Positions 298 to 18,177 of a stretch of DNA of 64,000 bases are shown piece after piece. Position 1 is the first letter of the stretch. Every line of letters starts with the position of its first letter. The position numbers were made by a program, and so were the translations under genes. Source of the stretch: Fodinibius sediminis (GTDB taxonomy: Bacteria; Bacteroidota; Rhodothermia; Balneolales; Balneolaceae); the NCBI RefSeq assembly GCF_900182555.1, contig NZ_FXTH01000005.1, forward strand, positions 1-64,000. The letters run 5' to 3'. The notes below the pieces were generated by a model. That model saw only the letters and a program-made list of their open reading frames with translations. It was not told the origin of the DNA and ran no database searches.

Positions 298-2115
298 ATG
301 GAACTTGCACCAATTGACTGGACCATAATTGGAGCTTATATGCTCTTTTCACTTCTCATCGGCTTTGCGGTAGCCCGGAAGGCCGGTAAAAATTCCGACC
401 AGTATTTTGCTGCAGGAAAGAATATGCCCTGGTGGCTGCTGGGTATTTCCATGGTTGCCACCACCTTCTCCACGGATACCCCAAACCTGGTTGCCAATAT
501 CGTTCGTACGGATGGCGTGTCGGGGAACTGGGTATGGTGGGCTTTTCTGTTAACGGGCATGCTCACGGTCTTTGTCTATGCTCACTTGTGGAAGCGCTCG
601 GGCGTACTCACCGACGTTGAATTCTACGAACTTCGCTACAGTGGCAAGATGGCTGCCTTCCTTCGGGGGTTCCGGGCGGTTTACCTGGGCTTTGTGTTCA
701 ATGTAGTGATTATGGCAACGGTATCGCTGGCGGCCATCAAGATTGCCGGGGTGCTGATGGGCCTGTCGCCGGTAGAGACGGTGGTGATTACGGGCGTTGT
801 AACGGTAATTTACAGTTCGCTGGGGGGGCTGAGAGGCGTCCTGCTGACCGACTTTTTCCAGTTTTTCCTGGCAATAGGGGGGAGCCTTATTGCGGCCTAT
901 GTGGCGCTTAATCACCCGCAGGTCGGGGGCTTTGAGGGATTGCTGAGCCATGCTGAAGTGGTGGGCCAGCTCAATATTTTACCCGACTTTACGGATCCGG
1001 CACAGGCGCTGGGTGTCTTTATTATACCGCTGGCTGTGCAGTGGTGGAGCGTCTATTATCCCGGGGCAGAGCCCGGCGGAGGCGGTTATATTGCCCAGCG
1101 TATGTTTGCGGCCAAGGATGAGAATAATTCCATAGCGGCCGTCTTCTTTTTCAATGCCGCACACTACGCTCTGCGCCCCTGGCCGTGGATTATCGTGGGG
1201 CTGTGCTCTATTATTGTGTTCCCGGATGTGGCGGCCATGCAGGAGGCCTTCCCGGATGCCGCCTCGGTAGCGGATGATGATATGGGATATGCGGCCATGC
1301 TGACGTTTATCCCCACCGGATGGCTGGGGCTTGTTGTGGCATCGCTGACCGCGGCTTATATGTCAACGATTTCAACGCACCTGAACTGGGGATCGTCCTA
1401 CCTCGTGAATGACTTCTACAAGCGGTTTATAAATCCCGAGAGCTCGGAAAAAGAATTGGTGATGGTGGGACGGCTTTCTACGGTTGTACTTATGATCGTT
1501 GCGGGGGGGCTGGCGCTGCTCATGCAGAATGCCCTCGACAGTTTCCAGATTCTCCTGCAGATCGGGGCGGGAACGGGACTCTTGTTTATCCTGCGCTGGT
1601 TCTGGTGGCGCATCAATGCCGGAAGCGAAATTGCGGCCATGGTGATCTCTTTCGTGGTAGCCGTCTATTTTCAGTTCTTCCACTCCTATACGGGCCTCCC
1701 TCAGCTGAGCGGCTGGGAAGAGATTGTCATTGGGGTGATCCTGACGACGATTGGCTGGGTCTCTGTTACCTATATGGTCCGTCCGACCTCTCAGAAGACG
1801 CTGCTGAATTTCTATGAAATTGCACGTCCCGGCGGACCCGGCTGGCAGAAAGTGCTGGATGTCGCCGAGAAAGCAGGCAGGGAAGTGCAGGTGTACAAGG
1901 ATGAAGCCTGGCGGGTGCCCCAGGGTATTTTCTGTATGCTGCTGGGCTGCTTCGCTGTGTACGGGACCTTGTTTGCCACCGGCTACTGGATTTATGGACA
2001 ATGGATCCTGGCTGGCACATTCACCGTTGTTGCCCTGGTATCCAGCGTGATGCTTTTCAAGGCCTGGCGAAAGCTGATCAATATCGGTCCCTCGGAGCAG
2101 GAACTCTATAAGTAA
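298..2115 (+). CDS. Sodium:solute symporter (SSS family)
   Basis: A 605-residue inner-membrane protein with about 14 hydrophobic segments and the SSS-type N-terminus (IGAYMLFSLLIGFAVARKAG, then a YFAAGKNMPWW stretch that fits the family's first re-entrant region). Family members couple Na+ influx to uptake of sugars, sugar acids or other small organics. It is the first gene after the insertion-sequence end and is followed on the opposite strand by fucose-catabolic genes, so a role in importing fucose, a fucose derivative or another product of the same glycan is plausible. It would be the second importer of the locus beside the FucP-type permease at 27513. The substrate is not readable from sequence. 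The C-terminal 100 residues contain a soluble stretch (about 505-540) followed by two last membrane segments. Confidence 0.85.
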   Translation: MELAPIDWTIIGAYMLFSLLIGFAVARKAGKNSDQYFAAGKNMPWWLLGISMVATTFSTDTPNLVANIVRTDGVSGNWVWWAFLLTGMLTVFVYAHLWKRSGVLTDVEFYELRYSGKMAAFLRGFRAVYLGFVFNVVIMATVSLAAIKIAGVLMGLSPVETVVITGVVTVIYSSLGGLRGVLLTDFFQFFLAIGGSLIAAYVALNHPQVGGFEGLLSHAEVVGQLNILPDFTDPAQALGVFIIPLAVQWWSVYYPGAEPGGGGYIAQRMFAAKDENNSIAAVFFFNAAHYALRPWPWIIVGLCSIIVFPDVAAMQEAFPDAASVADDDMGYAAMLTFIPTGWLGLVVASLTAAYMSTISTHLNWGSSYLVNDFYKRFINPESSEKELVMVGRLSTVVLMIVAGGLALLMQNALDSFQILLQIGAGTGLLFILRWFWWRINAGSEIAAMVISFVVAVYFQFFHSYTGLPQLSGWEEIVIGVILTTIGWVSVTYMVRPTSQKTLLNFYEIARPGGPGWQKVLDVAEKAGREVQVYKDEAWRVPQGIFCMLLGCFAVYGTLFATGYWIYGQWILAGTFTVVALVSSVMLFKAWRKLINIGPSEQELYK

Positions 2116-2422
2116 TTCCCTGCTCCATAAACGGGGGCAAGCCGGTGGTTCAATAAAGTGCCCGGGACGGGCACGCCCATGCGGCGGAAAGAGGGCCGGC
2201 ATCCGCTATATACCCTCAATACAATGAAGGACACGCTATTTATTCTCCTTTTTCCGGATGCTGAGCTTTATGAAAGGGAGCATCAGTCCGCTTTAAACAG
2301 AGAGGTGAACGGTGGGGCGCTTGTACCTGTATAAACGCTCGACGGACCCGTGGGATACCGAGATTGAAATGGAAGTCAAGCTCCGATGGAACCGGATGGG
2401 ATCCCGGATAATCTGATATGAG
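2116..2422. other. Intergenic region between convergent symporter and SDR genes
   Basis: About 300 bases between two converging genes. A perfect 6-bp hairpin (GTGCCC 2158-2163 / GGGCAC 2169-2174) lies 43 bases after the symporter stop but has no T-run. A 36-codon open frame at 2224-2334 has no recognisable product. Nothing else was identified. Confidence 0.5.
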
Positions 2423-3208
2423 TTATGAAATAGCCCGGTCCAGGTGCACATAGCCACCGTCAACATGAATGAACTGACCGGTGGTATGCGAAGAGCGGGG
2501 GGAGAGCAGAAAGAGGGCCGTGTCGGCAATTTCGGCAGGCCGGGTCATGCGTCGGCCGAGGGGAATCTTGTCAGTGATTGTTTTTTTCTTCTGTTCCGGC
2601 TGGTCGAAGGTACTGAGCCACTCTTTGTAGCCGGGAGTGAAGGATTCGGCGATGATAATAGCATTGACACGGATGTCCGATTCCCGCAGCTCGAGGGCCC
2701 ACTCGCGGGTCAATGCCAGCACCCCGCCCTTGGCCGCGGCATAGCCGGAGGTGCCTCCCTGTCCTGTCAGTGCAACTTTGGAGGCGATGTTGAGAATGGG
2801 TCCTGATGATTCTTTCAGGTGGGGAAGGGCTGTTTTCGTCACCTCGAAAAAATGGACGAGGTTTAGTTTCAGGGAATCCATGAAGGCCTCGTAGGAATCT
2901 TCAAAGCCCACCCCGTCGTTGATACCGAGGTTGTTAACCAGCCCGTCTACGCGGCCGTATTTGTCAACAGCCTGAATGACAGCTTGTTGGCAACCCTCCC
3001 TGGAAGTGAGATCGGCCTGTACAAACAGGCTTTCCTTTCCCTGCCTGGAAAGCTCGGATGCCAGGTCGCGGCCCCGGTCGCTTATATCAATGATGACCGG
3101 GATGCCTCCTTCGTTTGCGATATGCCGCACGATGACTTCCCCGATGCTGCCTGTGAGGCCCGCGCCCCCGGTAACCAAAATGACCTTGTCATTGAGTTCC
3201 AGATCCAT
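2423..3208 (-). CDS. SDR-family L-fucose dehydrogenase (probable)
   Basis: A 262-residue short-chain dehydrogenase that would oxidise L-fucose to the fuconolactone with NAD(P)+. Visible features are a glycine-rich loop TGGAGLTGSIG near residue 14, NNLG near 90, a catalytic Ser in NIASK, the Tyr-x3-Lys pair in GYAAAKG, and a C-terminus IPLGRRMT...GGYVHLDRAIS. That last stretch matches what I recall of bacterial L-fucose dehydrogenases. The start is set at the ATG at 3206-3208 (MDLELNDK), because the 22 residues before it in the longer frame do not look like SDR sequence. The loop fits TGxxGxxG, seen more in extended SDRs, rather than the classical TGxxxGxG. It lies 94 bases downstream of the FAH-family gene on the same strand, probably one transcript. 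Confidence 0.75.
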   Translation of the reverse strand: MDLELNDKVILVTGGAGLTGSIGEVIVRHIANEGGIPVIIDISDRGRDLASELSRQGKESLFVQADLTSREGCQQAVIQAVDKYGRVDGLVNNLGINDGVGFEDSYEAFMDSLKLNLVHFFEVTKTALPHLKESSGPILNIASKVALTGQGGTSGYAAAKGGVLALTREWALELRESDIRVNAIIIAESFTPGYKEWLSTFDQPEQKKKTITDKIPLGRRMTRPAEIADTALFLLSPRSSHTTGQFIHVDGGYVHLDRAIS

Positions 3209-3302
3209 AGCTGCTGTAATTGAAGAGTTGGAGTATCCGGCCAGCCCCGGCGGTTGACATGACGGGGCCGCCAAAATAATCTTCCAGAGGGAAACGGTGC
3301 AA

Positions 3303-4148
3303 TCAGATTTCCTTCACCGGGTTATTGAGTTCGCCGATGCCGCTGACCCAGGTCCGTACGGTATCACCCGCTGTCAGGTAGATCGGTGGTTTCCGGCTGA
3401 AGCCCACACCCTGCGGGGTCCCGGAGGCAATGATGTCTCCTGCTTCCAGGGTAAAGGAATGGGAGAGGCTGGATACGAGCTCGGCGACACCGAAAATCAT
3501 ATCCCTGGTATTGGCTTCCTGCAGGGTTTGTCCGTTGACGCTGCATCCGATGTCCAGATTTTGCGGATCGTCGATCTCATCGGCTGTTACAATAACGGGC
3601 CCCAGGGGACAGAAGGTATCGAGGGATTTTCCGCGGACCCACTGTTCGTCACTGAACTGAAGATCCCGCGCAGAGATATCATTGATTACCGTGTAGCCGA
3701 AGACATGAGACAGGGCTTCTTCCGGGCTGATATTCTTGGCATTCTTGCCAATGACAATACCCAGCTCAACCTCGTAATCCACTTCCCGGGTCAGGTCTAC
3801 CGGAATTTCTATAGTGTCGGTTGCCGAGATGATGGAACTGGAGAATTTGGTAAAGACCAGCGGCGTATCGGGCACATCCATCTGCGACTCCGAGGCGTGA
3901 TCCAGGTAATTGAGGCCGATGGCCACGATTTTGGAAGGGGTGCTGACAGGGGCGTCATAGTCTTCTTTTTTCACCGGCCGTCCCTCGCCTGTATACTCTT
4001 CCAGCGTTTTTTTGACCTGCTCGATATTACTGGGTTCGCTTTTTATTAAGTCCATTAGTGAGCCTCTGAAGCCCAGGTCATTTAATGAAATGCTTTGTCC
4101 GTCAACAATGGCGGTGGCGGTGCCATCTTTTAAAGTTGTAAGTTTCAC
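3303..4148 (-). CDS. FAH-family hydrolase, probable 2,4-diketo-3-deoxy-L-fuconate hydrolase
   Basis: A 281-residue fumarylacetoacetate-hydrolase-family protein. In the non-phosphorylating fucose route this family cleaves 2,4-diketo-3-deoxy-L-fuconate to pyruvate and L-lactate. The family's metal-ligand pattern is visible: a Glu-x-Glu in DYEVELGIVIG near residue 127 and an Asp in ISARDLQ near 160. The C-terminal stretch GDIIASGTPQGVG is also typical. The start appears to be GTG (4146-4148), with no in-frame ATG just upstream. It heads a two-gene minus-strand unit with the SDR gene and is divergent from the aldo/keto reductase at 4501. Family assignment is firm. The substrate is inferred from neighbours; other FAH-family acids are possible. 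Confidence 0.82.
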   Translation of the reverse strand: MKLTTLKDGTATAIVDGQSISLNDLGFRGSLMDLIKSEPSNIEQVKKTLEEYTGEGRPVKKEDYDAPVSTPSKIVAIGLNYLDHASESQMDVPDTPLVFTKFSSSIISATDTIEIPVDLTREVDYEVELGIVIGKNAKNISPEEALSHVFGYTVINDISARDLQFSDEQWVRGKSLDTFCPLGPVIVTADEIDDPQNLDIGCSVNGQTLQEANTRDMIFGVAELVSSLSHSFTLEAGDIIASGTPQGVGFSRKPPIYLTAGDTVRTWVSGIGELNNPVKEI

Positions 4149-4500
4149 GGGATAGCTTGTTTAGAGTTAGATAATTATGGTTATGGAATAAGAGTGGCTG
4201 CCGTCATGGAAGCCGCACCTTTCCGGGTGCCGGCCAATGGGTCCCTTATCACCGACAATAGATGTTCATGATCTGCCTCTGCCTGCAACAACAGGTGCCG
4301 CAGACCCCGGGAAAGTAAAAAAGATCATCATTTATTTAAATAGCCATCCCCATGATATCAAAACTTTTGGGGACAGCGAAAAGGTTTTTCAGTTATTTGC
4401 AGATAAATGGTATGTTGGCTGACGCAGGAACTCGACAACAGGGCCTGTTGTTGCTTTTCCTGGATGTAAATGCTATTCAAAATTATATCATTGACTGACT
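4149..4500. other. Divergent intergenic region between FAH hydrolase and aldo/keto reductase
   Basis: About 350 bases that must hold the promoters of both flanking genes. A 61-codon open frame (4237-4422) shows no family features and is judged non-coding. No palindrome like the one in front of susC (18050-18086) was found here, so these genes may not share its operator. Confidence 0.5.
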
Positions 4501-5499
4501 ATGAAATATCGAACGCTTGGGAATACTGATCTTAAACTGTCTGCTGTTACCTTTGGCGCTTGGGCAACCGGCGGCTGGATGTGGGGAGGAACCGAACAAA
4601 ACAATTCTGTGGATGCCATTCGGGCCGCTTTTGATCACGGCGTTACCTCTATTGATACGGCTCCGGTGTATGGGCAGGGGCTAAGTGAAAAAATTGTGGG
4701 CGAAGCCATCAGCAGCATTCCGAGGGAAAAGCTTCAGATACTCACTAAATTCGGTTTGCGCTGGGATACGGACAAGGGGCATTTTCGCTTTGCCAGTGTC
4801 GACAACGATGGAAATCCCATAGATGTGCATGAGTATGCTGCCAAAGAAAGTATTATCAGGGAGTGTGAACAAAGCCTCCGACGGCTGGATACCGATTATA
4901 TCGATCTTTATCAGATTCACTGGCCCGACCCGACGACGCCCATCGAAGAGACGATGGAAGCAGTGAGTCGGCTCAAGGAGCAGGGCAAGGTGCGGGAAGC
5001 AGCGGTTTGCAATTACAATGTGGAGCAGATGAAGGAGTCAGACAACTATATTAATATCGCTTCCAACCAGGTGCCCTACAGCATGCTGCGGCGCGACATT
5101 GAAGAGGATATTGTACCCTACTGTGTAGAACACGGGAAGGGGATCCTGGCGTATAGTCCCCTGCAGCGCGGGCTGTTGACTGGAAAAATGGAGGCCGGTC
5201 AGGATTTTGCGGAAGGCGATGCCCGGCCCGAGAGTCCATACTATTCGGATGAAAATATTCGCCGGACCAATGCTTTCCTGGACAATATCCGTCCCATTGC
5301 CGAAAAGCACGATGCCACACTGGCCCAGCTTACCATCCAATGGACGATACAGCAGCCGGGAATTACCATTGCGCTGGTGGGGGCCCGGAATGTAGAGCAG
5401 GCCACCCAGAACGCCGGGGCGGCTGATATTGAACTGACTGAGGAGGAGATCACAGCCATCAACAGCGAACTTGACAAGCTGGAACTCGATCTGAGCTGA
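4501..5499 (+). CDS. Aldo/keto reductase
   Basis: A 332-residue (alpha/beta)8 NAD(P)-dependent oxidoreductase. The AKR tetrad is visible: Asp and Tyr in SIDTAPVYGQG (about residues 51-60), Lys in ILTKFG (about 83), and His in QIHWPDP (about 140). The C-terminal cofactor region LVGARNVEQATQNAG is also typical. It is transcribed away from the FAH/SDR pair and followed by a candidate terminator. Members of this family include sugar 1-dehydrogenases, so it could oxidise L-fucose or another aldose released from the same glycan, in parallel to the SDR at 2423. That is inference from position; the family is too broad to fix the substrate. Confidence 0.85.
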   Translation: MKYRTLGNTDLKLSAVTFGAWATGGWMWGGTEQNNSVDAIRAAFDHGVTSIDTAPVYGQGLSEKIVGEAISSIPREKLQILTKFGLRWDTDKGHFRFASVDNDGNPIDVHEYAAKESIIRECEQSLRRLDTDYIDLYQIHWPDPTTPIEETMEAVSRLKEQGKVREAAVCNYNVEQMKESDNYINIASNQVPYSMLRRDIEEDIVPYCVEHGKGILAYSPLQRGLLTGKMEAGQDFAEGDARPESPYYSDENIRRTNAFLDNIRPIAEKHDATLAQLTIQWTIQQPGITIALVGARNVEQATQNAGAADIELTEEEITAINSELDKLELDLS

Positions 5500-5525: not shown

Positions 5526-5558
5526 CCCATCCCCGGCGTCCGTCCGGGGCTGGGTTTT
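5526..5558 (+). terminator. Candidate rho-independent terminator after aldo/keto reductase
   Basis: CCCCGG (5531-5536) pairs with CCGGGG (5544-5549). The stem extends across a 2x2 internal loop by CCC (5526-5528) / GGG (5552-5554), and is followed directly by TTTT. It starts 27 bases after the stop codon. Confidence 0.55.
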
Positions 5559-5560
5559 GT

Positions 5561-5902
5561 CACATTCATAAAGGAGTAATAAACCTCCGGCCTAACGAAA
5601 GGTGAGGGGCCCGTTTCATCGTGGCGAGTGGGAGCGGCCATAAATCATTTCCTGTTTGACGACCAGCGGGAGGAGCTAAATGATTTTAGCGACGGGAGCC
5701 GCGGTGGGGCGCCGAAGCTTTCTCAGCCGGTGAGTTTTTTTGGTTCCTTTTTTGCTCATTCAAAAAAGGAACAACTATTTCCACGCCTCACCAGCTAAGG
5801 CCGGCTGTTTGGGGGAAATTGATTCACGACTTTCAACCTTTAACATACAACCTGCAACAAAACTAACTCTATATGGGACGTGTCACTTTCATAAGGAAGT
5901 AT
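5561..5902. repeat. Dispersed intergenic repeat, composite copy 1
   Basis: Three blocks recur elsewhere in the window. The first (about 5568-5600) matches 54029-54062 almost base for base. The second (about 5723-5774) contains a perfect 12-bp hairpin, GTTCCTTTTTTG (5743-5754) / CAAAAAAGGAAC (5761-5772), and matches 54198-54276. The third (about 5780-5902) matches 6321-6447 and 54349-54450. No gene is credible here. Confidence 0.75.
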
Positions 5903-6017
5903 CAGGGGTTTGGGGAAGAGCCGGGAAACATTATTTAGTTCAACTACTCCTGTGGAAGAGCGATCCATGAGGGAAAGGTTTTAGCCCTTACAACATCTTG
6001 CTCTTCCCCAACACTTT

Positions 6018-6310: not shown

Positions 6311-6447
6311 CTCCCGTTCCCTTTCCACGCCTCACCAGCCAAGGCCGGCTGTTTGGGGGAAATAGATTCACAACCTTCAACCTTTAACATACAACTTGCA
6401 ACAGATCTTTATCTAGATGGGGCTTCTCGCTTTCATAAAGGAACATC
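6311..6447. repeat. Dispersed intergenic repeat, third-block copy 2
   Basis: This is a near-identical direct repeat of 5779-5902, with shared words CCACGCCTCACCAGC, AAGGCCGGCTGTTTGGGGGAA and TTCAACCTTTAACATACAAC. It ends about 150 bases upstream of the asparagine-synthetase-like gene. Further copies are at 53494-53572 (partial) and 54349-54450. Confidence 0.75.
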
Positions 6448-6595: not shown

Positions 6596-7924
6596 ATGGC
6601 TGCATCTCATCATTATGTGGAGGATTTTGAAAATCTTCTTGACCCCGATCTTAACATCATTTTCAATATGTCGCTGGAGGAAGCGGAAGCAGCGGTGCTT
6701 TCGGAGGATCCACGGCGCGTTCGCGAAATCGACGGGTCTTTTGCAATCGTAAAAAAGAAGGGCAGGGAAGTTTTTATGGCCCGGTCCATCGGCCGTCCCA
6801 TGCGCTATTTTTTGGCCAAGCAGGCTTCCGGGCCCCTGCTGATTGTGGCCGAGCGTATTGATGAGATCTACGACTATCTCAAGCAAAAGGGACTGCACGA
6901 GCAGTTTCATCCTTCGTATACGCGGATGGTGCCGGCGCATCATCTGACCCGCCTGCAGCTGATAGGCTGTCCGGACCCGAGTCCGGAGTACAAACGCTAC
7001 TTCGACCCGCGGCAAAATGTGCTGGATGGCGATTTGGATGCTATCGGTGCCCGCTATATCGGGGCCCTGGCTGCTGAATGTCAAAAGTGGTTGAAAGGCC
7101 TCCCCGAAAAGGAGCCGATCGGGGTTCTTTTTTCAGGCGGTATTGACAGCGGATCCGTTTTCCTGGTGCTTTACCACCTGATGCTGGAGATGGGGATGTC
7201 ACCGCAGCGCCTGAAAGCGTTCACGTTGTCGGTAGAGGGGGGCAAAGACGCGCAACAGGCCGCCCGGTTTCTGGATCAGCTGGACCTGTCGCTGTTCCTG
7301 GAGGTTGTTGATGTTCCCGCGGAGGAAATAGACTACAAAAAGACCATCCGCATTGTGGAAGATTATAAGTCACTGGATGTGGAAGCCGCCACCATGACCG
7401 AAGCCTTGTGCCGTAAAATTCGGGAGCGGTATCCCGACTGGAAGTACCTGGCCGATGGCGACGGCGGCGATGAAAATATGAAGGATTACCCCATTGAGGA
7501 AAACCCGGAGCTGACGATCCGCAGTGTGCTGAATAATCAGATGCTCTATCACGAGGGGTGGGGCGTGGACAAGATCAAGCACTCGCTTACCTATTCGGGG
7601 GGGCTCAGCCGCGGGCATGTCCGGACGTATGCGCCGCCACGCTACTATGGATTCACCTCTTTTAGTCCCTATACGCTGCCCAACGTGATAGAAGTGTCGG
7701 AAGGCATCCCGTTTATTCAGCTCACCGACTGGGACCATGAAGAGCTTTATGCCCTGAAAGGGGAAATTGTACAGCGGGGCATCAAGGCAGTGACGGGGAT
7801 GGATATGCCTGCTTTTCCCAAGCGGCGGCTGCAGCACGGGGCCGCACCGGAAGAGAAGACGGAGGAGCTGTTTGCCGAGGATGAAATGGTCTATCGGCGC
7901 TATTTTTCCTCCCTGTACGGGTAG
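6596..7924 (+). CDS. Asparagine-synthetase-like ATP-dependent amide/amidine ligase
   Basis: A 442-residue protein whose C-terminal two thirds match the PP-loop synthetase domain of class B asparagine synthetases. The pyrophosphate loop SGGIDS is at residues 180-185 and GDGGDEN near 286-292. Such domains adenylate a carboxylate and join it to an amine. The N-terminal part (residues 1-140) resembles the AsnB N-terminal fold but begins MAASHHY and has no Cys at position 2. The glutaminase nucleophile is therefore absent, and the nitrogen donor must be ammonia or an amine substrate, as in beta-lactam-synthetase-like relatives. It is the first gene of a three-gene unit, 40 bases before the radical SAM gene. 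The acceptor is unknown; a route to ordinary asparagine is unlikely given its partners. Confidence 0.8.
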   Translation: MAASHHYVEDFENLLDPDLNIIFNMSLEEAEAAVLSEDPRRVREIDGSFAIVKKKGREVFMARSIGRPMRYFLAKQASGPLLIVAERIDEIYDYLKQKGLHEQFHPSYTRMVPAHHLTRLQLIGCPDPSPEYKRYFDPRQNVLDGDLDAIGARYIGALAAECQKWLKGLPEKEPIGVLFSGGIDSGSVFLVLYHLMLEMGMSPQRLKAFTLSVEGGKDAQQAARFLDQLDLSLFLEVVDVPAEEIDYKKTIRIVEDYKSLDVEAATMTEALCRKIRERYPDWKYLADGDGGDENMKDYPIEENPELTIRSVLNNQMLYHEGWGVDKIKHSLTYSGGLSRGHVRTYAPPRYYGFTSFSPYTLPNVIEVSEGIPFIQLTDWDHEELYALKGEIVQRGIKAVTGMDMPAFPKRRLQHGAAPEEKTEELFAEDEMVYRRYFSSLYG

Positions 7925-7964
7925 CGCTGTCGGAAGATGAGATTAAAAATTGCCGCCTGAAATC

Positions 7965-8897
7965 ATGCTGGAAACATCCGAAATCATAGCTTTGCGTCCG
8001 GATAAGAACGAGGTGCGTCGCGACCGGCCGTATCACTTTCTGCATGAACGGGAGCGGGGAAACGACGGCGAGCTGAAAGCGGTCAATACCATTTTCCTGA
8101 CCAACAGCGAATGCCCGTTCAAGTGCGTAATGTGTGACTTGTGGAAAAATACGCTCGACGAACCAGTCAAACCGGGGGCGGTGCCTGCACAGATATCGTA
8201 TGCCCTGGAACGGCTTCCGGAGGCACAGGTCGTCAAACTCTATAACAGCGGCAATTTTTTTGACAGGAAGGCCATCCCCCCCGCCGATTATCCCGCCATC
8301 GCCCGGCTGCTGGACTCCTGTGAGCGCGTCATAATTGAAAATCATCCCAAATTGTGCAGCGACGCCTGTCTTGATTTCAAGCAGCTGCTGCAGGGCGAGC
8401 TCGAAATCGCCATGGGACTGGAAACCATCCATCCGGAGGTGCTGCCGCGCCTTAACAAACAGGTTACAACGGAGATTTTTGCAGAAGCGGCGGATTTCCT
8501 GGCCCGGCATGAGATTGAATCGCGCGCCTTCGTTCTTCTGAATCCTCCTTTTCTGACGGATCCCCGGGAAAATGTTGAGTGGGCGGTCAAAAGTGTGGCG
8601 TTCGCCCTCGAATGCGGGGTTACGGCGTGCAGTATCATCCCAACGCGAGCGGGAAACGGCGCGATGGAGAAATTGCGCAGCCAGGGGGCTTATGTGCCTC
8701 CCACTATCAATGCCCTGGAAGAAGCATTTGAGCAGGCCCTTCGACTTGGAAGGGGGCGAATTTTTGTGGACTTGTGGGATATTGAACAGTTTGCCGATTG
8801 TCCCCACTGTCTGGAAGCACGCAAACAACGATTAAAAAAGATGAACCGGGAGCAGCAGGTCCGACCTCCCGCAGTATGTTCCTATTGTAACGGATGA
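7965..8897 (+). CDS. Radical SAM protein (RaSEA/Elp3-like type)
   Basis: A 310-residue radical SAM enzyme with the 4Fe-4S motif CPFKCVMC (Cys-x3-Cys-x2-Cys) near residue 50. Further landmarks are KLYNSGNFFD, IIENHPKL and MGLETIHPEVL...LNKQ. By recall these follow the layout of the TIGR01210/archaeosine RaSEA-like group (SGSFLD, VESRPE, IGLET, LNKG). The C-terminus has two further Cys pairs (CPHC near 286 and CSYC at the end), which could bind zinc or a second cluster. The ATG at 7965 is preferred over an upstream TTG at 7950. Its last four bases overlap the start of the flavoprotein gene (ATGA, 8894-8897), so translation is likely coupled. The reaction is not predictable. Confidence 0.82.
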   Translation: MLETSEIIALRPDKNEVRRDRPYHFLHERERGNDGELKAVNTIFLTNSECPFKCVMCDLWKNTLDEPVKPGAVPAQISYALERLPEAQVVKLYNSGNFFDRKAIPPADYPAIARLLDSCERVIIENHPKLCSDACLDFKQLLQGELEIAMGLETIHPEVLPRLNKQVTTEIFAEAADFLARHEIESRAFVLLNPPFLTDPRENVEWAVKSVAFALECGVTACSIIPTRAGNGAMEKLRSQGAYVPPTINALEEAFEQALRLGRGRIFVDLWDIEQFADCPHCLEARKQRLKKMNREQQVRPPAVCSYCNG

Positions 8898-10408
8898 AAA
8901 ATAAAGAGTATGATATAGCCGTGATCGGCTCGGGCTTTTCCGGCTCACTGATGGCCCTTGGGCTGGATAAACTGGGTTATAGGGTGATCCTTATTGAAAG
9001 AGGATCCCACCCGCGTTTTGCGGTAGGCGAGTCGTCCACGCCCATAGCTGATATGATCTTGCGTGATATTGCCGACCGTTATGATTTGGATTGGCTGCAC
9101 CATTTTTCGCGCTATGGAAGCTGGCAGAAGCATCATCCTGGAATAACCTGTGGACGCAAGCGGGGGTTCAGCTACTATCGCCACCATCCAGGCGAGTCCT
9201 TTAGGACGGATGAGCGGCATGCCCGTGAGTTACTGGTGGCTGCCAGTACGGACGACCAGCAGTCTGATACGAATTGGTACCGCTCGGAGCTGGACGCATT
9301 TCTCGTCTCGAAAGTGCAGGAGGCGGGCATTGATTATGTGGACCAGACAACCATAACGTCCCTGGATCGGACAGACGGGTTCTGGAAGATGAAGGCCTAC
9401 TATCAAAAAAAGCTGAAGACCTATAGCAGCAACTGGATTATTGATGCGACGGGCAACGGCTCGCTGCTTTGGCAGCTGGGGGTTCGCTCCTCAGATGAGC
9501 ATTTTAAGACCCACTCTTCGGCCGTCTATTCTCATTTCACTGATGTGAAGCCCTGGCAGTCGTGGCTGGATGACCATGGTATTTCCAGCAGGGATTATCC
9601 TTATGATCCCGACTGGTCAGCATTGCACCATCTGCTGGATGAGGGTTGGCTTTGGATGCTGCGTTTTAATAATGGTATCACCAGTGCAGGACTTGTCCTC
9701 GATGGTAATCAAGAGTCCCGCTGGTCAGGCAATAAAGAGATGATCTGGCAAGAGGTAGTCGGACGCTATCCCTCATTGACCGAACTGTTTGAAGAGGCCG
9801 CTTATGCTGAACAGCCCGGCAGCTTGACGGCGACCCAGCGATTGCAGCGGCGAGCAGATCGCATATTCGGTGAGGGATGGGTGGCCCTGCCGCATACAGC
9901 CGGCTTTGTCGATCCACTGCACAGCACGGGCATTGCCCATACCCTGTCTGGGGTCGAGCGTCTTTTGTACGCGTTTGAAAACAGGTCGTTAGGGTCTGCT
10001 TCCAGGAATGAGTACCTCTTCAGCTATGAAAAAGCCGTCTTTAATGAGCTCCATTTTATTGATCTACTGGTCGATGGCTGCTACAAGGCCCGGGGAAACT
10101 TTGAGCTGTTCAGCACCTATGCCATGCTCTATTTTATGGCGGCCGTCTGTTATGAGAAGAAACGGATCAGCGGATCCTTCGATATTGAAGCACACGGGTT
10201 CCTGTCGGCCAATCATCCCCAGCTGCCGACACTGATCCGAGAGTGCCACCGGGAGCTGGAGCAGCTTGTTTCAGCATCTGACCTCACAGGGAAAATGGTC
10301 CGGTCATTTCGCCAGAAAGTTCAAAAGGCCATCGAACCCTATAACACCGTCGGTCTGCTGGATCCGGCCACGCCCCATATGTATGAACATACCGCCGCTG
10401 ACATATAG
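8894..10408 (+). CDS. FAD-dependent oxidoreductase, tryptophan-halogenase-like
   Basis: A 504-residue flavoprotein of the flavin-dependent halogenase/monooxygenase superfamily. Visible are the dinucleotide loop GSGFSG (residues 12-17), ERG at 35-37, GESSTP at 45-50 as in halogenases, a candidate catalytic Lys89 in GRKRGFSYY, and DATGNGS at 184-190. The halogenase signature WxWxIP is only partly kept (WLWMLR at 252-257), so halogenation is uncertain and another flavin oxidation is possible. It overlaps the radical SAM gene by four bases and closes the three-gene unit. No reductase partner or small precursor peptide gene was found beside it. Family confidence is good; the chemistry is open. Confidence 0.8.
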   Translation: MKNKEYDIAVIGSGFSGSLMALGLDKLGYRVILIERGSHPRFAVGESSTPIADMILRDIADRYDLDWLHHFSRYGSWQKHHPGITCGRKRGFSYYRHHPGESFRTDERHARELLVAASTDDQQSDTNWYRSELDAFLVSKVQEAGIDYVDQTTITSLDRTDGFWKMKAYYQKKLKTYSSNWIIDATGNGSLLWQLGVRSSDEHFKTHSSAVYSHFTDVKPWQSWLDDHGISSRDYPYDPDWSALHHLLDEGWLWMLRFNNGITSAGLVLDGNQESRWSGNKEMIWQEVVGRYPSLTELFEEAAYAEQPGSLTATQRLQRRADRIFGEGWVALPHTAGFVDPLHSTGIAHTLSGVERLLYAFENRSLGSASRNEYLFSYEKAVFNELHFIDLLVDGCYKARGNFELFSTYAMLYFMAAVCYEKKRISGSFDIEAHGFLSANHPQLPTLIRECHRELEQLVSASDLTGKMVRSFRQKVQKAIEPYNTVGLLDPATPHMYEHTAADI

Positions 10409-10410
10409 AT

Positions 10411-10447
10411 GGATAATTGGAGAATGAATTTTCTTTAATTATCCTTT
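10411..10447 (+). terminator. Candidate terminator after the halogenase-like gene
   Basis: GGATAATT (10411-10418) pairs exactly with AATTATCC (10437-10444), with an inner AGAA/TTCT pairing and a short TTT after the stem. It begins three bases after the stop codon at 10408. The T-run is weak. Confidence 0.38.
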
Positions 10448-10563
10448 GATAGGTATTTTCACATGCTTCGGTATAGAAGTTCAGCTTTCCTGCACGACCA
10501 CGGCCTGTGATTTGCCATGGACAAAGCTCTGTGATCAGTAACTGAGATTAAATTTGATGATCG

Positions 10564-12150
10564 ATGAAAAAAAATAGCCTGTTCTTTTTGTGCCTGCTTT
10601 TGGTGACGGTTATTCAACTTTCCTGCAATGATTCTCAGCAAAAGGAAAAGGAGAAGAAACCCAATATCATTCTATTCCTGGTGGATGATCTGGGCTGGCA
10701 AGACACCTCGGTTCCTTTCCACAAGGAGGAGACCCCGTTTAATGAGCGCTATGAAACGCCGAATATGGAACGGCTGGCCGAGCAGGGGATGCTTTTTACC
10801 AATGCCTATTCTGCCAGTCCGGTCTGTACGCCTACACGCAGCAGCATCATCACGGGAAAGAATCCGGCCAACACCAACATTACAGACTGGACACTGCGCA
10901 ATGATGTACGGGCAATGGACCGGGTAAAGCCGGAATCGGACTTTCCCCTGTTCGCTCCCGAATGGCGGGTGGAAGGGGTGCAGCCGGATACTCTTCTGCT
11001 TACCTCGCTTTTGAGAAAACAGGGGTATCGGACCATTCATGTGGGGAAAGCTCATTTTGGGGCACTGGAAACGGCGGGAGCCGATCCCGAAAATCTTGGA
11101 TTTGATGTGAATGTTGCAGGGCACGCTGCGGGGGCCCCGGGCAGCTACTGGCCGGAAGACAGGTATGGTAACAGCGAAACAGATTCCATTTGGGGGGTGC
11201 CCGGCATGGAACAGTATTATGAAAGCCAGGCCAACCTGACGGAAGCCCTGACGATAGAAGCCAACAAGGCCATTGATGAAGCTGTTGCCGATGACAAGCC
11301 TTTCTATATTAATATGGCTCATTATACGGTACATGCACCGATCATGGCCGATCGGCGTTATTACCAGAAGTACCTGGAGGCAGGTATCGACAGCGCCGAA
11401 GCAAAGTATGCATCCATGATTGAGGGCATGGACCGGAGCCTGGGTCAGCTGTTGAAGCATCTTGAAGAGGAAGAGGTGGCAAAAGAGACCATCATATTGT
11501 TTATGTCGGACAACGGCGGACTGAGCGTTCATTCCCGCGGCTCAACGCCCATGGGGACAGGGGGCAATACGCATAACAAACCTTTGCGAAGCGGGAAGGG
11601 ATCGGCATATGAAGGGGGCATTCGGGTTCCCATGATAGCGGCATGGGCTGAGGAAGCAGGGCAGCTGCCGCTGCAAAAGCACTTCCCCATTCAGCCCGGA
11701 AGCCGAAATGATACCCCCGTCATTTCAGAGGATTTTTATCCGACAATCCTGGAGCTCGCCGGGCTTGGTTCGGCGCACCGGGCCTATCGAGCCACAGATG
11801 GCCGCAGCTTTCTCCCGTTGCTGAAAAATGCAGAGGCTTCGGGAGAGGACCGCCTCTTATTCTGGCATTATCCGCATAAATGGGGACCCGACGGCCCGGG
11901 CTATGAACCTTTTACCGCGGTTCGGGATGGGGCATGGAAGCTGATCTATTTCTACCGGAACCAGGAGTGGGAGCTCTATAACCTGGACGAGGATATTGGG
12001 GAGACCCGGAATCTGCTTGACGAGCGAAGAGAGGTAGCCCGGAGACTTGCTGAAAAAATGACTCCCCGGATGCGGACAGCAGGGGCCCAGACACCGGTCT
12101 CGAAGGTGACGGGGAAACCCGTTGGATTACCGGTGCTGGCAGAGGAATAG
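10564..12150 (+). CDS. Secreted type I sulfatase (lipoprotein)
   Basis: A 528-residue arylsulfatase-family enzyme that would remove sulfate esters from a glycan at the cell surface or in the periplasm. The formylglycine site is Cys88 in SPVCTPTRSS (C-x-P-x-R), so it needs an anaerobic or FGE-type maturase not seen in this window. Metal-site residues are visible in LFLVDDLGW (about 37-45), in MSDNGG (about residue 315), and in the GKAHFG region. A signal peptide ends at a lipobox (IQLSC, Cys21). It is the first of three plus-strand degradative genes (sulfatase, GH95, GH31) with short spacers. A sulfated fucose-containing polysaccharide is the natural inference; the sulfatase subfamily and position specificity cannot be read here. 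Confidence 0.88.
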   Translation: MKKNSLFFLCLLLVTVIQLSCNDSQQKEKEKKPNIILFLVDDLGWQDTSVPFHKEETPFNERYETPNMERLAEQGMLFTNAYSASPVCTPTRSSIITGKNPANTNITDWTLRNDVRAMDRVKPESDFPLFAPEWRVEGVQPDTLLLTSLLRKQGYRTIHVGKAHFGALETAGADPENLGFDVNVAGHAAGAPGSYWPEDRYGNSETDSIWGVPGMEQYYESQANLTEALTIEANKAIDEAVADDKPFYINMAHYTVHAPIMADRRYYQKYLEAGIDSAEAKYASMIEGMDRSLGQLLKHLEEEEVAKETIILFMSDNGGLSVHSRGSTPMGTGGNTHNKPLRSGKGSAYEGGIRVPMIAAWAEEAGQLPLQKHFPIQPGSRNDTPVISEDFYPTILELAGLGSAHRAYRATDGRSFLPLLKNAEASGEDRLLFWHYPHKWGPDGPGYEPFTAVRDGAWKLIYFYRNQEWELYNLDEDIGETRNLLDERREVARRLAEKMTPRMRTAGAQTPVSKVTGKPVGLPVLAEE

Positions 12151-12225
12151 GAATGGCCGGCCGCTGGCGGGCAGCTGCGAGAACAGGCTGGTAATGGATT
12201 TAAATGGGAGAAAAAGCTTTGCATT

Positions 12226-14595
12226 ATGCACTTCATGAAAACATACGGTTGCATCCTAACTCTATTGCTCTTTAACCTCTCTGCACTGAAAGCCCAGGAG
12301 CAGGACCTGCAGCTTTGGTATGAATCACCGGCCCGGGCGTGGACCGAAGCGCTGCCGGTGGGCAATGGCAGCCTGGGCGGGATGATCTTCGGAGGCATCG
12401 ATCGGGAGCGAATCCAGCTGAATGAGGAAAGTGTGTGGACGGGACATCCGATCGATCGGGGAAATCCGGAGGCCAGGGCACACCTGGATTCGGTTCGACA
12501 GCTTTTGTTTGCGGGTGAATATACGGAAGCCGAGCGGCTGGCACAGGAAAAAATCATGGGTAGAAGACTGGAACAGGGCGAGCATACCTATCAGACGCTT
12601 GGGAATTTGTATTTGAATTTCCCGGGGGCGTCCAAAACAGAAGACTACCGGCGAGCACTGGATCTAAGCACAGCGGTGGCATCAGTGCATTACGAGCAGG
12701 AGGGCATCCGTTATAAGCGGGAACTGTTTTCCAGCTACCCTGATCAGTTAATGGCCCTGAATCTTTCAGCTGACCAACCTGGTGCATTATCTTTGGAACT
12801 GCAGCTCAATCGACCGAGTCAGCATGAAGCGGTAACCTTGTCGGCCAATGAAATCGTCATGCGCGAGCATACCGGCAACGGAGACGGGGTGCGGTATACG
12901 GCCCGTTTGAGGGTTAATGTCAGTGGGGGATCTGTGAACGCCGCCGATTCAACACTTCATATTTCCAATGCCGATGAGGTAACGCTGCTGCTCGCAGCTG
13001 CGACAGATTATCAGAATAAGAATCCGGATGAGCTCACCCGGCAACGACTGGACCACGCCCAGGCCTTCACCTACAAACAGTTGAAACAGCGGCACATCAG
13101 GGACTATCAGCAATTGTTCAACCGGGTGTCCCTGGATTTAACCCCGGACAGGGTAGGGGATACGGCAACCGACCGGCGGCTTGAACGTCTGAGGCAGGAG
13201 GGAGGGCCGGCTCCCCATCTTTCAGAACTTTATTTTCAGTACGGCCGTTATTTGCTGCTCAGCAGTTCCCGCTCCGGTTCGCTGCCCGCCAACCTGCAGG
13301 GAATATGGGCCGAAGGCATGGCTCCTCCCTGGAATGCCGATTATCACATCAATATTAACCTTCAGATGAACTACTGGCCGGCGGACCTGACCAACCTTTC
13401 GGAGACCTACGGCCCTTTCTTCGATTTTGTGGAAAAGCTGAGACCGCGAGGCAGGGAAACAGCCCGCCAGACCTATGGCAGCAGGGGAGCGGTAGCTCAT
13501 CATACAACCGACGTCTGGCATTTTACAGAGCCTATTGGCAAAACATACTGGGGACTCTGGCCCATGGGGGCGGCCTGGCTGACGATGCATTTCTGGGACC
13601 ATTATCAGTACACGGGAAGTGAGGCCTTTTTGCGAGAGCGGGCGTATCCTCAGATGAAATCTGCCGCCACCTTTTTTATGGATTACCTGGTGAAAGATCC
13701 CGAGACGGGGTATCTGGTCACAGGTCCCTCTATGTCGCCGGAGAATCAGTATATCACCCCGGAGGGCAAGCAGGCCAGCATAGCCATGGGGCCTGCGATG
13801 GATATGGAGATACTCCATGAATTGTTTGAAGCAACGATAAAGGCATCCCGGATGCTGGAGCTTGATGCCGCTTTCCGGGATACGCTTCAGCAACTGAAAA
13901 ATGATCTTGCTCCTGTAAGAATCGGGGCAAACGGAACGATTATGGAATGGAACGAGGATTTTGAAGAGGCCGAGCCGGGCCACCGTCATATCTCTCACCT
14001 GTATTCACTCCATCCCGGCAAGGCCATTAATGCGAATGACACCCCCGAATTGTTCCGGGCGGCCCGAAAGACCATTGACCGGAGACTGCAGCATGGCGGG
14101 GGACATACGGGATGGAGCCGGGCCTGGATTATCAACTTTTTTGCCCGCCTCAAAGATGGGGAAAAGGCCCGTGAGAATATACTGGCACTGTATACCAAAT
14201 CAACGCTGCCCAACCTTTTTGATACGCATCCGCCTTTCCAGATTGATGGTAACTTTGGCGGAACGGCGGGGATTGCGGAAATGCTGCTGCAGTCGCATGC
14301 CGGCTATGTTGAGCTGCTGCCTGCCCTGCCGAAGGCATGGAAGGAGGGGCGGGTTCGTGGCCTGAAAGCCCGTGGCAACTTTATCGTTGACATGAGGTGG
14401 GCCAAAGGTCGGCTGACCGAGGCCGTTATTACCTCCAATTCGGGAGGAACACTGCGGCTGAAAACACATTTCCCTGTGCAGGAGTCAGATAGCAGCCTGG
14501 CCGGAAGAGGGCAGCCGGTCAGCGGGCCGGGAGGGGCGGTCTACATCTATGAGCTTGAGACCAATCCGGGAGAGGTCATTACCTTGATGTTTTGA
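12226..14595 (+). CDS. GH95 alpha-L-fucosidase
   Basis: A 789-residue secreted glycoside hydrolase. It opens, after a signal peptide ending near LKAQ, with LWYESPARAWTEALPVGNGS and GGMIFGGI, the hallmark start of GH95. The (alpha/alpha)6 domain contains NADYHININLQMNYWP (about 370-385), SPENQ (about 504, the likely acid Glu) and DGNFGGTAGIAEM (about 673, the likely base Asp region). The enzyme would release L-fucose (some members release L-galactose) with inversion. A second ATG nine bases downstream (12235) is an equally good start. It lies between the sulfatase and GH31 genes and supplies the sugar fed into the fucose-oxidation genes of the locus. Confidence 0.9.
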   Translation: MHFMKTYGCILTLLLFNLSALKAQEQDLQLWYESPARAWTEALPVGNGSLGGMIFGGIDRERIQLNEESVWTGHPIDRGNPEARAHLDSVRQLLFAGEYTEAERLAQEKIMGRRLEQGEHTYQTLGNLYLNFPGASKTEDYRRALDLSTAVASVHYEQEGIRYKRELFSSYPDQLMALNLSADQPGALSLELQLNRPSQHEAVTLSANEIVMREHTGNGDGVRYTARLRVNVSGGSVNAADSTLHISNADEVTLLLAAATDYQNKNPDELTRQRLDHAQAFTYKQLKQRHIRDYQQLFNRVSLDLTPDRVGDTATDRRLERLRQEGGPAPHLSELYFQYGRYLLLSSSRSGSLPANLQGIWAEGMAPPWNADYHININLQMNYWPADLTNLSETYGPFFDFVEKLRPRGRETARQTYGSRGAVAHHTTDVWHFTEPIGKTYWGLWPMGAAWLTMHFWDHYQYTGSEAFLRERAYPQMKSAATFFMDYLVKDPETGYLVTGPSMSPENQYITPEGKQASIAMGPAMDMEILHELFEATIKASRMLELDAAFRDTLQQLKNDLAPVRIGANGTIMEWNEDFEEAEPGHRHISHLYSLHPGKAINANDTPELFRAARKTIDRRLQHGGGHTGWSRAWIINFFARLKDGEKARENILALYTKSTLPNLFDTHPPFQIDGNFGGTAGIAEMLLQSHAGYVELLPALPKAWKEGRVRGLKARGNFIVDMRWAKGRLTEAVITSNSGGTLRLKTHFPVQESDSSLAGRGQPVSGPGGAVYIYELETNPGEVITLMF

Positions 14596-14631
14596 TATTT
14601 TAAGAATTGTAATCTCACCAAAACCCATCAA

Positions 14632-16782
14632 TTGATGAGCATACACAACCTTCTGATCTGCTGTATTGCCGTTGTCCTGTCCGCTGCTCCGGCCAGAGCC
14701 CAGAATCTGTCCTGGCAGCAGGTGGAACCCGGCATCTGGAAGGCAAAGGCAGGCAAACCGGAAGCATACGATCTGTTAACCGCCTCGGGGGCTGAACCAC
14801 GCGAGGAAGGATTGACGGAGATGGGGGATTCCTCATTTCCTCTGCCCGCTGATGAGATAACCGCCCGGGTCGTCGACGGTCAGACCTACCTCCGGTTTCC
14901 GTTGGACCGCAAAGAGCAGCTTTACGGTTTTGGCCTTAATTTTAAGACGGTACATCAGCGCGGCCGGATTCTGCGACTGCATGTCGATCATTATGGAGGT
15001 GAAGATAATGGAAGGACACACGCTCCCACTCCTTTTTATGTCTCTTCAAAAGGATACGGGGTATTTATAAATTCGGCACGGTATATAAAGGTGTATGCCG
15101 GTACTGCGGCTCGAAAAGACAGCGAGGACCCTCCGGTTGCAAGAGACCGCAATACCGACCCGGACTGGACTTCTCGTCCGTATTCGGATAGCGTGGAAAT
15201 GCTGGTGCCGGCGGAAGGGGCCGAAGTCTATATTTTCGGCGGGCCCACCCCTCTTGATGCGGTGCGCCGGTATAATTTGTTCAACGGGGGCGGTCCACTG
15301 CCGCCCCGGTGGGGGTTGGGGTTCACCCAGCGTGTGCACCGTTTATATTCGGCTGAGGACATCAGGCAGGAAGCAGAAGCTTTTGCAGAGAGGGGATACC
15401 CGCTTGATTTCATTGGGCTTGAGCCGGGCTGGCAAAGTAAATCGTATCCCGGCACCTTTGAATGGGATGGGGGACGATTTCCTGAGCCTCGGACATTTGT
15501 CCGCGAGATGCTCGACAAGGGGATTCGGCTGAACCTTTGGATTAATCCCTATGTGTCTCCGGATGCTTCATTTGCCGATTCCATAGCCCCCTACACCGCC
15601 TCCCATACCGTCTGGGCTGGGATGGTTCCTGATTTTAACACGAGGGAGGGACGAAATATATTCTTTTCACAACTGGAGGAGAACCAGGTAGATAGGGGAG
15701 TGAGCGGCTATAAAATTGATGAGGTGGATGGGTATGACCGGTGGGTCTGGCCGGATGTGGCAACATTCCCCTCCGGGGTGACAGCGGAACAGATGCGCCA
15801 GACATACGGCTTGCTTGTTCAGCGCTACAGCGAGGATATGTTTGAAAAACGAAATCGTCGTACGTTCGGGCTCGTGCGGGCATCCAACGGGGGAGGTACC
15901 TCTTTTCCCTATGTCATCTATAATGATTACTATAATCACCGGAACTTCATCACAGCGCTTATCAACAGCAGTTTTTCCGGGGTGCTCTGGACACCCGAAG
16001 TGAGGGCATCCGAGACGGGGGAGGAGTGGCTTCGGCGTGTACAGTCGGTGGTCTTTTCACCAATGGCCATGATCAATGCATGGTCAAGCGGAACAAAACC
16101 CTGGTCTTTTGCCGAGGTTGAGCAGGAGGTAAGAGAAATGTTTCGGCTTCGCATGCGCATGATGCCCTACTGGTACAGCGAATATGCCAAATACCATTTC
16201 AAGGGCATCCCGCCCTTTCGCGCCATGAATCTGGAGGAAGGATTTCGGTCGGGGCTGAAGATGGAGGCCACAGAAAAGGGGCTTGAAGAAAATCCCTATG
16301 CCGAAGCGGTCAGAAAGGAGATTAATGACCAGTATATGGCAGGGGAGTACCTGCTGGTGGCGCCCATGTTTGAGGGGCAGGAGAGCCGGGAGGTCGTGCT
16401 GCCCGACGGTCGCTGGTACGATTTTTATACCGGTAATTACGTAGGAGAGAGTGAGATTATTACCGTGTCTCCGGGACTGGATAAAATACCGGTTTTTGTA
16501 AAAGACGGAGGCATTATTCCGATGATGCCGGCTAGGATGCACGCCCCCGGAGCCGGCGAAAAAGTGAATATTCAAGTGCGCCACTATGGGGAGAAAGCAG
16601 GATCGTATCTGCTCTATGATGATGACGGGCTGACGTACGACTATGAAGACGGGGAGTACCAGTTCAGGGAAATCAGGGTGGAAAAAGCACAGGATGGCCG
16701 GTGGGAGGGAACGATTGCTCCTGCCGAAAAGAATAAGCCCAATACGGTCGGTGAGGTGAGCTGGAGATTTATGCCCCCCTAA
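14632..16782 (+). CDS. GH31 glycoside hydrolase
   Basis: A 716-residue secreted enzyme (signal peptide ending near RAQN) with the GH31 N-terminal beta domain, a catalytic barrel and C-terminal beta domains. The nucleophile region reads GYKIDEVDGYD, with the Asp at about residue 362 in the family's KxD position. The usual acid/base segment (W-x-G-D) instead appears as LWTPEVRAS near 452-460, which suggests a subgroup with specificity other than alpha-glucose. It follows the GH95 gene by 36 bases and converges with the LacI gene. In this locus it may remove alpha-linked galactose, xylose or another side sugar; that is inference. Confidence 0.85.
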   Translation: MMSIHNLLICCIAVVLSAAPARAQNLSWQQVEPGIWKAKAGKPEAYDLLTASGAEPREEGLTEMGDSSFPLPADEITARVVDGQTYLRFPLDRKEQLYGFGLNFKTVHQRGRILRLHVDHYGGEDNGRTHAPTPFYVSSKGYGVFINSARYIKVYAGTAARKDSEDPPVARDRNTDPDWTSRPYSDSVEMLVPAEGAEVYIFGGPTPLDAVRRYNLFNGGGPLPPRWGLGFTQRVHRLYSAEDIRQEAEAFAERGYPLDFIGLEPGWQSKSYPGTFEWDGGRFPEPRTFVREMLDKGIRLNLWINPYVSPDASFADSIAPYTASHTVWAGMVPDFNTREGRNIFFSQLEENQVDRGVSGYKIDEVDGYDRWVWPDVATFPSGVTAEQMRQTYGLLVQRYSEDMFEKRNRRTFGLVRASNGGGTSFPYVIYNDYYNHRNFITALINSSFSGVLWTPEVRASETGEEWLRRVQSVVFSPMAMINAWSSGTKPWSFAEVEQEVREMFRLRMRMMPYWYSEYAKYHFKGIPPFRAMNLEEGFRSGLKMEATEKGLEENPYAEAVRKEINDQYMAGEYLLVAPMFEGQESREVVLPDGRWYDFYTGNYVGESEIITVSPGLDKIPVFVKDGGIIPMMPARMHAPGAGEKVNIQVRHYGEKAGSYLLYDDDGLTYDYEDGEYQFREIRVEKAQDGRWEGTIAPAEKNKPNTVGEVSWRFMPP

Positions 16783-16823
16783 TCAGGTGAAGCTCAAGGT
16801 TGTGGAACTGTCGTTCTATGATG

Positions 16824-17903: not shown

Positions 17904-18049
17904 AATTTATGCCAACTAAAAGCATCTGCCCTTCTCTGTTAAGCAGAAAGAAAAACCGAAAGCTATTGCCTTTCCTTATATAATAAGGGATAAAAAACTA
18001 ATTTTTCTCTTTGAATTAAAGGAGTTTTTTCTAGAAAGGTATTTTTTTG

Positions 18050-18063
18050 TGTGTGCGCACACA
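18050..18063. promoter_or_regulatory. LacI-type operator 1
   Basis: A perfect 14-bp palindrome, TGTGTGCGCACACA, with a central C-G step as in LacI/GalR-family operators. It is placed between the divergent lacI-type gene and susC. Its centre is 21 bp from that of operator 2, two helical turns apart. Confidence 0.75.
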
Positions 18064-18068
18064 TATCA

Positions 18069-18086
18069 TTTGTGTGCGCACACAAA
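18069..18086. promoter_or_regulatory. LacI-type operator 2
   Basis: A perfect 18-bp palindrome, TTTGTGTGCGCACACAAA, sharing its 14-bp core with operator 1. The short spacer between the two sites reads TATCA (18064-18068); together with operator 2 it gives TATCATTTG, one base off the Bacteroidota -7 element TAnnTTTG, so binding could block the promoter directly. No third copy was noticed elsewhere in the window. Confidence 0.75.
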
Positions 18087-18177
18087 GGGAGATTACTCTT
18101 GTTTCTGCTTTTTATTATTTCTATGTTCATTTCGTACAGATACCATCCACAATAAACCTAAAGAGTTGGAATTGCTT

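Follow-up and report, generated by a model that had tools for sequence, protein, structure and literature searches.

A ligase, a radical SAM enzyme and a flavin halogenase-like protein of the salt-loving bacterium Fodinibius sediminis are encoded by a three-gene unit that recurs across bacterial phyla

The stretch of DNA analysed here (the window) comprises the first 64,000 nucleotides of contig NZ_FXTH01000005.1 of Fodinibius sediminis (assembly GCF_900182555.1), and it carries three co-directional genes on the forward (+) strand. The first gene (AS, 6596-7924, 442 aa) encodes an asparagine/beta-lactam-synthetase-like ATP-dependent ligase, as judged by its open reading frame (ORF), a PF00733 match and structure comparison. 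The second (RS, 7965-8897, 310 aa from an ATG, with a TTG at 7950 as alternative start) encodes a distant RaSEA/Elp3-type radical S-adenosylmethionine (SAM) enzyme, and the third (FH, 8894-10408, 504 aa) encodes a flavin halogenase-like protein whose nearest relatives are PltM and tetracycline 7-halogenase. A first-pass annotation, made from the sequence alone, had described three packed enzymes with a 40-base gap, a 4-base ATGA overlap and a downstream hairpin, and all of these are borne out by our coordinates. Specifically, AS and RS are spaced by 40 bases, and the RS stop and FH start overlap within ATGA at 8894-8897 of the + strand, by which translation of FH is likely coupled to that of RS. 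Short spacing or overlap is also seen at the AS/RS and RS/FH junctions of most linked relatives. The hairpin 3' of FH lies on the + strand at approximately 10411-10447, with a 14-bp stem (−18.5 kcal/mol for 10406-10470; z = −3.9), and is a candidate operon terminator or mRNA stabiliser; the terminator scan did not call it because a T run is absent.

The three genes (hereafter the trio) nearly always occur together or not at all. Among 296 genomes of the window's phylum, the identical 18 carry AS, RS and FH, one copy each, and the remaining 278 carry none of them (Fisher p about 4e-29, kinship ignored); for each gene the next match lies far off in E-value, that of RS falling from 1e-82 to 4e-11. 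In a second sample, of 119 Planctomycetota, the same four genomes hold all three genes, with FH unlinked in all four and located ~240-310 kb away in two. Additionally, of 26 genomes chosen for carrying AS without a full local trio, 24 encode RS and 25 encode FH. The pairwise distances of the AS, RS and FH proteins correlate at r = 0.89-0.92 over 47 loci, a level reached in none of 2000 permutations. The 18 carriers of the window's phylum span eight families, but in the genus of the window the trio is limited to one of seven genomes, and gain and loss thus affect all three genes jointly. That three unrelated genes stand side by side in this lineage by chance is conceivable in so far as AS, RS and FH belong to broad superfamilies with many other members each; coincidence is nonetheless already refuted by the all-or-none occurrence in 415 genomes of the two phylum samples, even when the genes are unlinked, and the gene order kept in five or more phyla leaves it a negligible probability. 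At the level of comparative genomics, AS, RS and FH are shown to constitute one functional unit.

A genome scan with one genome per species yielded at least 521 candidate stretches encoding AS relatives, of which the best 80 were kept. By their record titles, these 80 loci belong to Bacteroidota (Chitinophagaceae, Mucilaginibacter, Dyadobacter), Balneolota, Rhodothermota, Planctomycetota and Verrucomicrobiota, together with single metagenome-assembled genome (MAG) records titled Gemmatimonadetes and Deltaproteobacteria, which are possibly binning errors. AS and RS are adjacent in 50 of the best 80 loci, mostly at a spacing of about −14 to +60 bases, with FH usually next. The first-pass annotation had judged the trio foreign to the fucose locus that surrounds it, and had looked to distant lineages without such a locus for independence and to confinement among close relatives for the opposite. 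The operon AS-RS-FH does recur without a fucose locus in each of the five named phyla, hence in at least five, and its carriers span distant phyla.

AS matches PF00733 with 45 bits (cut-off 21), and reaches 38.2 bits against the asparagine synthase model TIGR01536, below the curated cut-off of 267. The predicted structure of AS (predicted local distance difference test score, pLDDT, 85.5) is best matched by beta-lactam synthetase (Z 25.4, 367 residues, root-mean-square deviation 3.6), with asparagine synthetases at Z about 24, and it shares a core with tRNA PP-loop enzymes at Z about 10. The ATP site contains the PP-loop SGGIDS and DGDGGDEN, the latter conforming to a nearly invariant DGxGGDEN, and residues S180-G-G, D184, S185, D287, D292, E293 and K409 are invariant in 99 of 99 AS relatives; the C-terminal K409 presumably stands where the catalytic lysine of the family lies. 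Because the structural alignment begins at residue 37-40 of ASNS, AsnB and beta-lactam synthetase, the N-terminal nucleophile (Ntn) domain of AS is, in the model, truncated by the first ~37-40 residues, including the glutaminase Cys nucleophile. No N-terminal Cys nucleophile is found in the AS alignment, in which C125 is the sole conserved Cys within the first 129 positions. Taken together, sequence and model describe AS as a beta-lactam-synthetase-like fold with the glutaminase site missing and the ATP-ligase site intact. AS thus shares with beta-lactam synthetase and asparagine synthetase B the fold over its residues 5-442 and the PP-loop SGGIDS, and with beta-lactam synthetase also an unusable glutaminase site, whereas it differs from both in the missing Ntn start, an identity of about 16-19%, and other partners and substrate.

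RS matches PF04055 below its cut-off, and its best-scoring known family is TIGR01210 (RaSEA), with 86.9 bits and E 1e-24 against a curated cut-off of 212 bits. The cluster site C50xxxC54xxC57 has its CxxxCxxC cysteines in 85 of 85 relatives. A C-terminal C279xxC282...C305xxC308 pattern, whose cysteines are kept in about 70-80% of relatives, lies beyond the stretch matched by TIGR01210. The predicted structure (pLDDT 96.5) has a radical SAM, Elp3-like fold. RaSEA has the same CxxxCxxC cluster and acts downstream of the ligase-like ArcS; unlike RaSEA, RS is bacterial rather than archaeal, falls short of the family score and sits in an operon without an ArcS-like gene. Within the trio neighbourhoods, which are what was covered of these genomes, no ArcS or ArcTGT partner was found.

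This kinship raises the alternative that the trio modifies nucleic acid or a free 7-deazaguanine-like nucleobase, with RS as a relative of RaSEA or queuine lyase, AS as an adenylating PP-loop modifier and FH oxidising or halogenating the base. RaSEA is indeed the top sequence relative of RS, the structural relatives of RS include queuine lyase (Z 17.2) and Elp3, which acts on tRNA, and a precedent for ligation before a radical step exists, in that ArcS ligates lysine and RaSEA then yields archaeosine (PMC11298593). The structural ranking carries little information, however, since queuine lyase, biotin synthase and Elp3 lie within about 1 in Z of one another, with HydE also tied at the top. The AS core that is common to tRNA PP-loop enzymes is likewise far closer to beta-lactam and asparagine synthetases (Z 24-25), PltM and tetracycline 7-halogenase, to which FH is closest among solved relatives, use small phenolic or polyketide substrates, and a patchy, mobile occurrence would be unusual for a core tRNA modification. 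We therefore consider a nucleobase substrate distinctly improbable; the terms "amidine-forming" and "nucleobase-like" in the first-pass annotation would trace solely to the distant likeness to RaSEA.

FH matches PF04820 (Trp_halogenase) with 49 bits (cut-off 21), and its homology to PltM (E 1e-81) and to tetracycline 7-halogenase of the CtcP type (E 1e-72) extends over most of the protein. In the FAD motif GxGxxG, G12 and G14 are present in 70 of 70 relatives and G17 in at least 90%. K89, likewise present in 70 of 70, aligns with PltM Lys87, which is essential, the K87A mutant being inactive (PMC6424973). W252 (70/70) and W254 (69/70) are kept, and FxDPxxSxG is present. Judged by these residues, the flavin and lysine active site of FH is intact. 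FH therefore has GxGxxG, the catalytic Lys, WxW and FxDPxxSxG in common with PltM and CtcP-type halogenases, and unlike them it has no polyketide or pyoluteorin cluster around it.

Clustering of the flanks, whether in the window's phylum, in Planctomycete/Verrucomicrobia loci or in pooled loci, gave no constant fourth operon gene, only lineage synteny and an FG-GAP/ASPIC system. Genes for a polyketide synthase (PKS), a nonribosomal peptide synthetase (NRPS) or a conserved precursor peptide are absent from the trio loci. Specifically, no conserved small ORF of at least 25 aa accompanies it as a precursor of a ribosomally synthesized and post-translationally modified peptide (RiPP); the small ORFs that do recur lie antisense at lipoprotein gene positions or, in Planctomycete loci, at RS positions. 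Downstream of the trio in Bacteroidota lies a convergent gene for a lipoprotein of ~1190 aa with TPR, FG-GAP and ASPIC domains, and several of these loci also contain UnbV-like, NQR2/RnfD (UnbU-like) and MFS transporter genes; UnbU and UnbV are names from enediyne clusters. In three Planctomycetes, a relative of the lipoprotein gene is arranged head-to-head with AS. In the window's phylum, the lipoprotein is encoded in 18 of 18 trio genomes and in 11 of the 278 others, and because it is found in all the trio genomes as well as in these 11 trio-free ones, the trio distribution is nested within that of the lipoprotein. In the genome of the window, the lipoprotein gene (~1158 aa) lies on contig 7 at 213907-217380 (minus strand), within an operon at 211241-217380 (minus strand; L178:8241-14380) that also encodes a ~602-aa FG-GAP/UnbV protein and a ~278-aa NQR2/RnfD (UnbU-like) membrane protein.

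One alternative is that the trio matures a protein or peptide, installing a cofactor or crosslink in, for example, the lipoprotein or a ribosomal peptide, as the radical SAM enzyme QhpD and the flavin monooxygenase QhpG do for quinohemoprotein amine dehydrogenase. The lipoprotein accompanies the trio throughout the phylum and adjoins it in Bacteroidota and some Planctomycetota, and FH matches the maturases QhpG (E 6e-22), GoxB (E 1e-15) and LodB (E 6e-11), at 78, 58 and 42 bits, below their curated cut-offs of 240, 400 and 400 bits. The QhpD/QhpG and GoxB/LodB systems resemble the trio in their radical SAM and flavin monooxygenase partners, and FH matches them weakly; they differ from it in that the trio has no conserved target peptide adjoining, has an extra ligase, and has in FH a protein that retains the halogenase lysine and is far nearer PltM than QhpG. 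No lipoprotein column is fixed in the presence of the trio and clearly different in its absence, and no small ORF family runs alongside the trio. Maturation of a protein or peptide is thus quite unlikely. The lipoprotein as substrate of the trio was rejected for lack of a discriminating conserved residue, and, since no residue tracks the trio cleanly, a role as a partner, be it in use or in transport, is more likely for it.

AS, RS and FH each come from a known superfamily, and none reaches a curated function-level cut-off (the NCBIfam equivalog level), so that the separate, well-matched function for each gene that the first-pass annotation had allowed for was not encountered; together they would form a compact biosynthetic cassette. 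We propose that the trio is a biosynthetic pathway of three steps, complete in itself, which is passed between bacteria and has no relation to the adjoining fucose locus, a reading to which we give a probability of about 0.45. AS would adenylate a carboxylate and join it to an amine to form an amide in the manner of beta-lactam synthetase, with the amine not supplied by an internal glutaminase. RS may then open or rearrange the joined product by means of a 5'-deoxyadenosyl radical, for example by breaking a C-N or C-C bond of the attached amino acid, by analogy with RaSEA after ArcS. FH would use FADH2, O2 and halide to form a hypohalous acid (HOX), which via Lys89 would place the halogen on an aromatic ring, either of the product or of a precursor, oxygenation being the alternative. 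Because no PKS, NRPS or precursor-peptide gene lies near the trio, the starting material is likely a primary metabolite, an aromatic amino acid or similar. The gene order AS-RS-FH is conserved; the order of the reaction steps is putative. The first-pass annotation had pictured a ligase, a radical SAM enzyme and a flavin enzyme tailoring one metabolite; this picture, putative as to product and substrate, fits the catalytic residues.

Several observations weigh against this pathway. AS and RS score far under the asparagine synthase and RaSEA cut-offs, respectively, and their reactions are therefore not readable from family. The trio has no constant companion gene for a flavin reductase, a transporter or a precursor. 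The weakest point is the destination of the product: export, or a site of action beyond the cytoplasm, is probable because the Bacteroidota trio adjoins the lipoprotein gene and, in some loci, UnbV/UnbU-like and MFS genes; the lipoprotein also occurs in the 11 genomes without the trio, and none of its residues strictly tracks trio presence or absence. Finally, the IP of the WxWxIP motif is replaced in FH, mostly by LR, with P in 3 of 70 relatives, which sets FH apart from PltM and CtcP-type halogenases, and FH may for this reason oxygenate rather than halogenate. The small-molecule pathway would in that case be the same, with FH as a halogen-free flavin oxygenase or dehydrogenase. WxWxIP has been proposed to hold substrates off the flavin and so to favour halogenation over hydroxylation (PMC10696468), and its IP is gone in nearly all FH members; on the other hand, the lysine and both tryptophans are nearly invariant, and FH resembles two proven halogenases along its full length, which makes a halogen-free FH somewhat unlikely. 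The most specific form of the proposed pathway, in which the trio makes a new small molecule or cofactor, halogenated and bearing an amide, that has spread as a three-gene unit in aerobic Bacteroidota, Balneolota, Rhodothermota, Planctomycetota and Verrucomicrobiota and works with the TPR/FG-GAP/ASPIC and UnbV/UnbU-like envelope system, is rather doubtful.

In the PMC literature searched, with subscription papers and preprints outside the search, no description of the trio combination was found. The trio is kept gene for gene in these phyla even when its genes drift apart, so its product must be useful, and it is small enough for whole expression in a heterologous host, which would make the product directly accessible. 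It would provide an ArcS/RaSEA-like sequence of ligation and radical chemistry outside archaeal tRNA, and FH would test whether a halogenase-type enzyme functions without the IP of WxWxIP.

The AS tree mixes phyla, which suggests that the trio has been transferred between them. One Rhodothermota group branches inside Planctomycetota and another family of the window's class stands beside Verrucomicrobiota, both with starred or near-starred support; paralogy and MAG errors are the alternatives for these placements. As to carriers, RS had no match in viral_contigs and AS had none in plasmids.

In the window, the trio is flanked by a fucose/sulfated-polysaccharide locus (298-5499 and 10564-21609), with genes for an SSF symporter, an SDR, an FAH hydrolase and an aldo/keto reductase upstream, and for a sulfatase, GH95, GH31, a LacI regulator and a SusC-like receptor downstream. 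A tie between the trio and this locus was rejected, as all lineages except Fodinibius roseus show other neighbours. Fodinibius roseus (Balneolaceae), the closest relative among the matches listed (AS 84% identity), alone shares the aldo/keto reductase, FAH and sulfatase flanks with the window. The intergenic region 5' of AS contains two direct repeats of 126 nt (5778-5903 and 6322-6447), which are 85% identical and 544 bases apart, together with a third, partial copy at 5551-5575; the repeat core 21-mer is found nowhere else within the window. The upstream repeat array of the first-pass annotation thus comes down to this pair and the partial copy: the repeats exist, and an array does not.

Two variants of the gene arrangement were also seen. 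In many Planctomycete genomes, AS, RS and FH lie far apart and are yet all kept, an uncommon instance of strict functional linkage without gene linkage. In Balneolaceae such as Rhodohalobacter (seven loci: L028, L029, L030, L063, L067, L069 and L071), a gene for a secreted-looking protein of ~495 aa, which we take to be possibly Wzi-like, is inserted on the opposite strand between AS and RS; it widens the AS-RS gap to 1.7 kb and is seen in the Balneolaceae lineage only.

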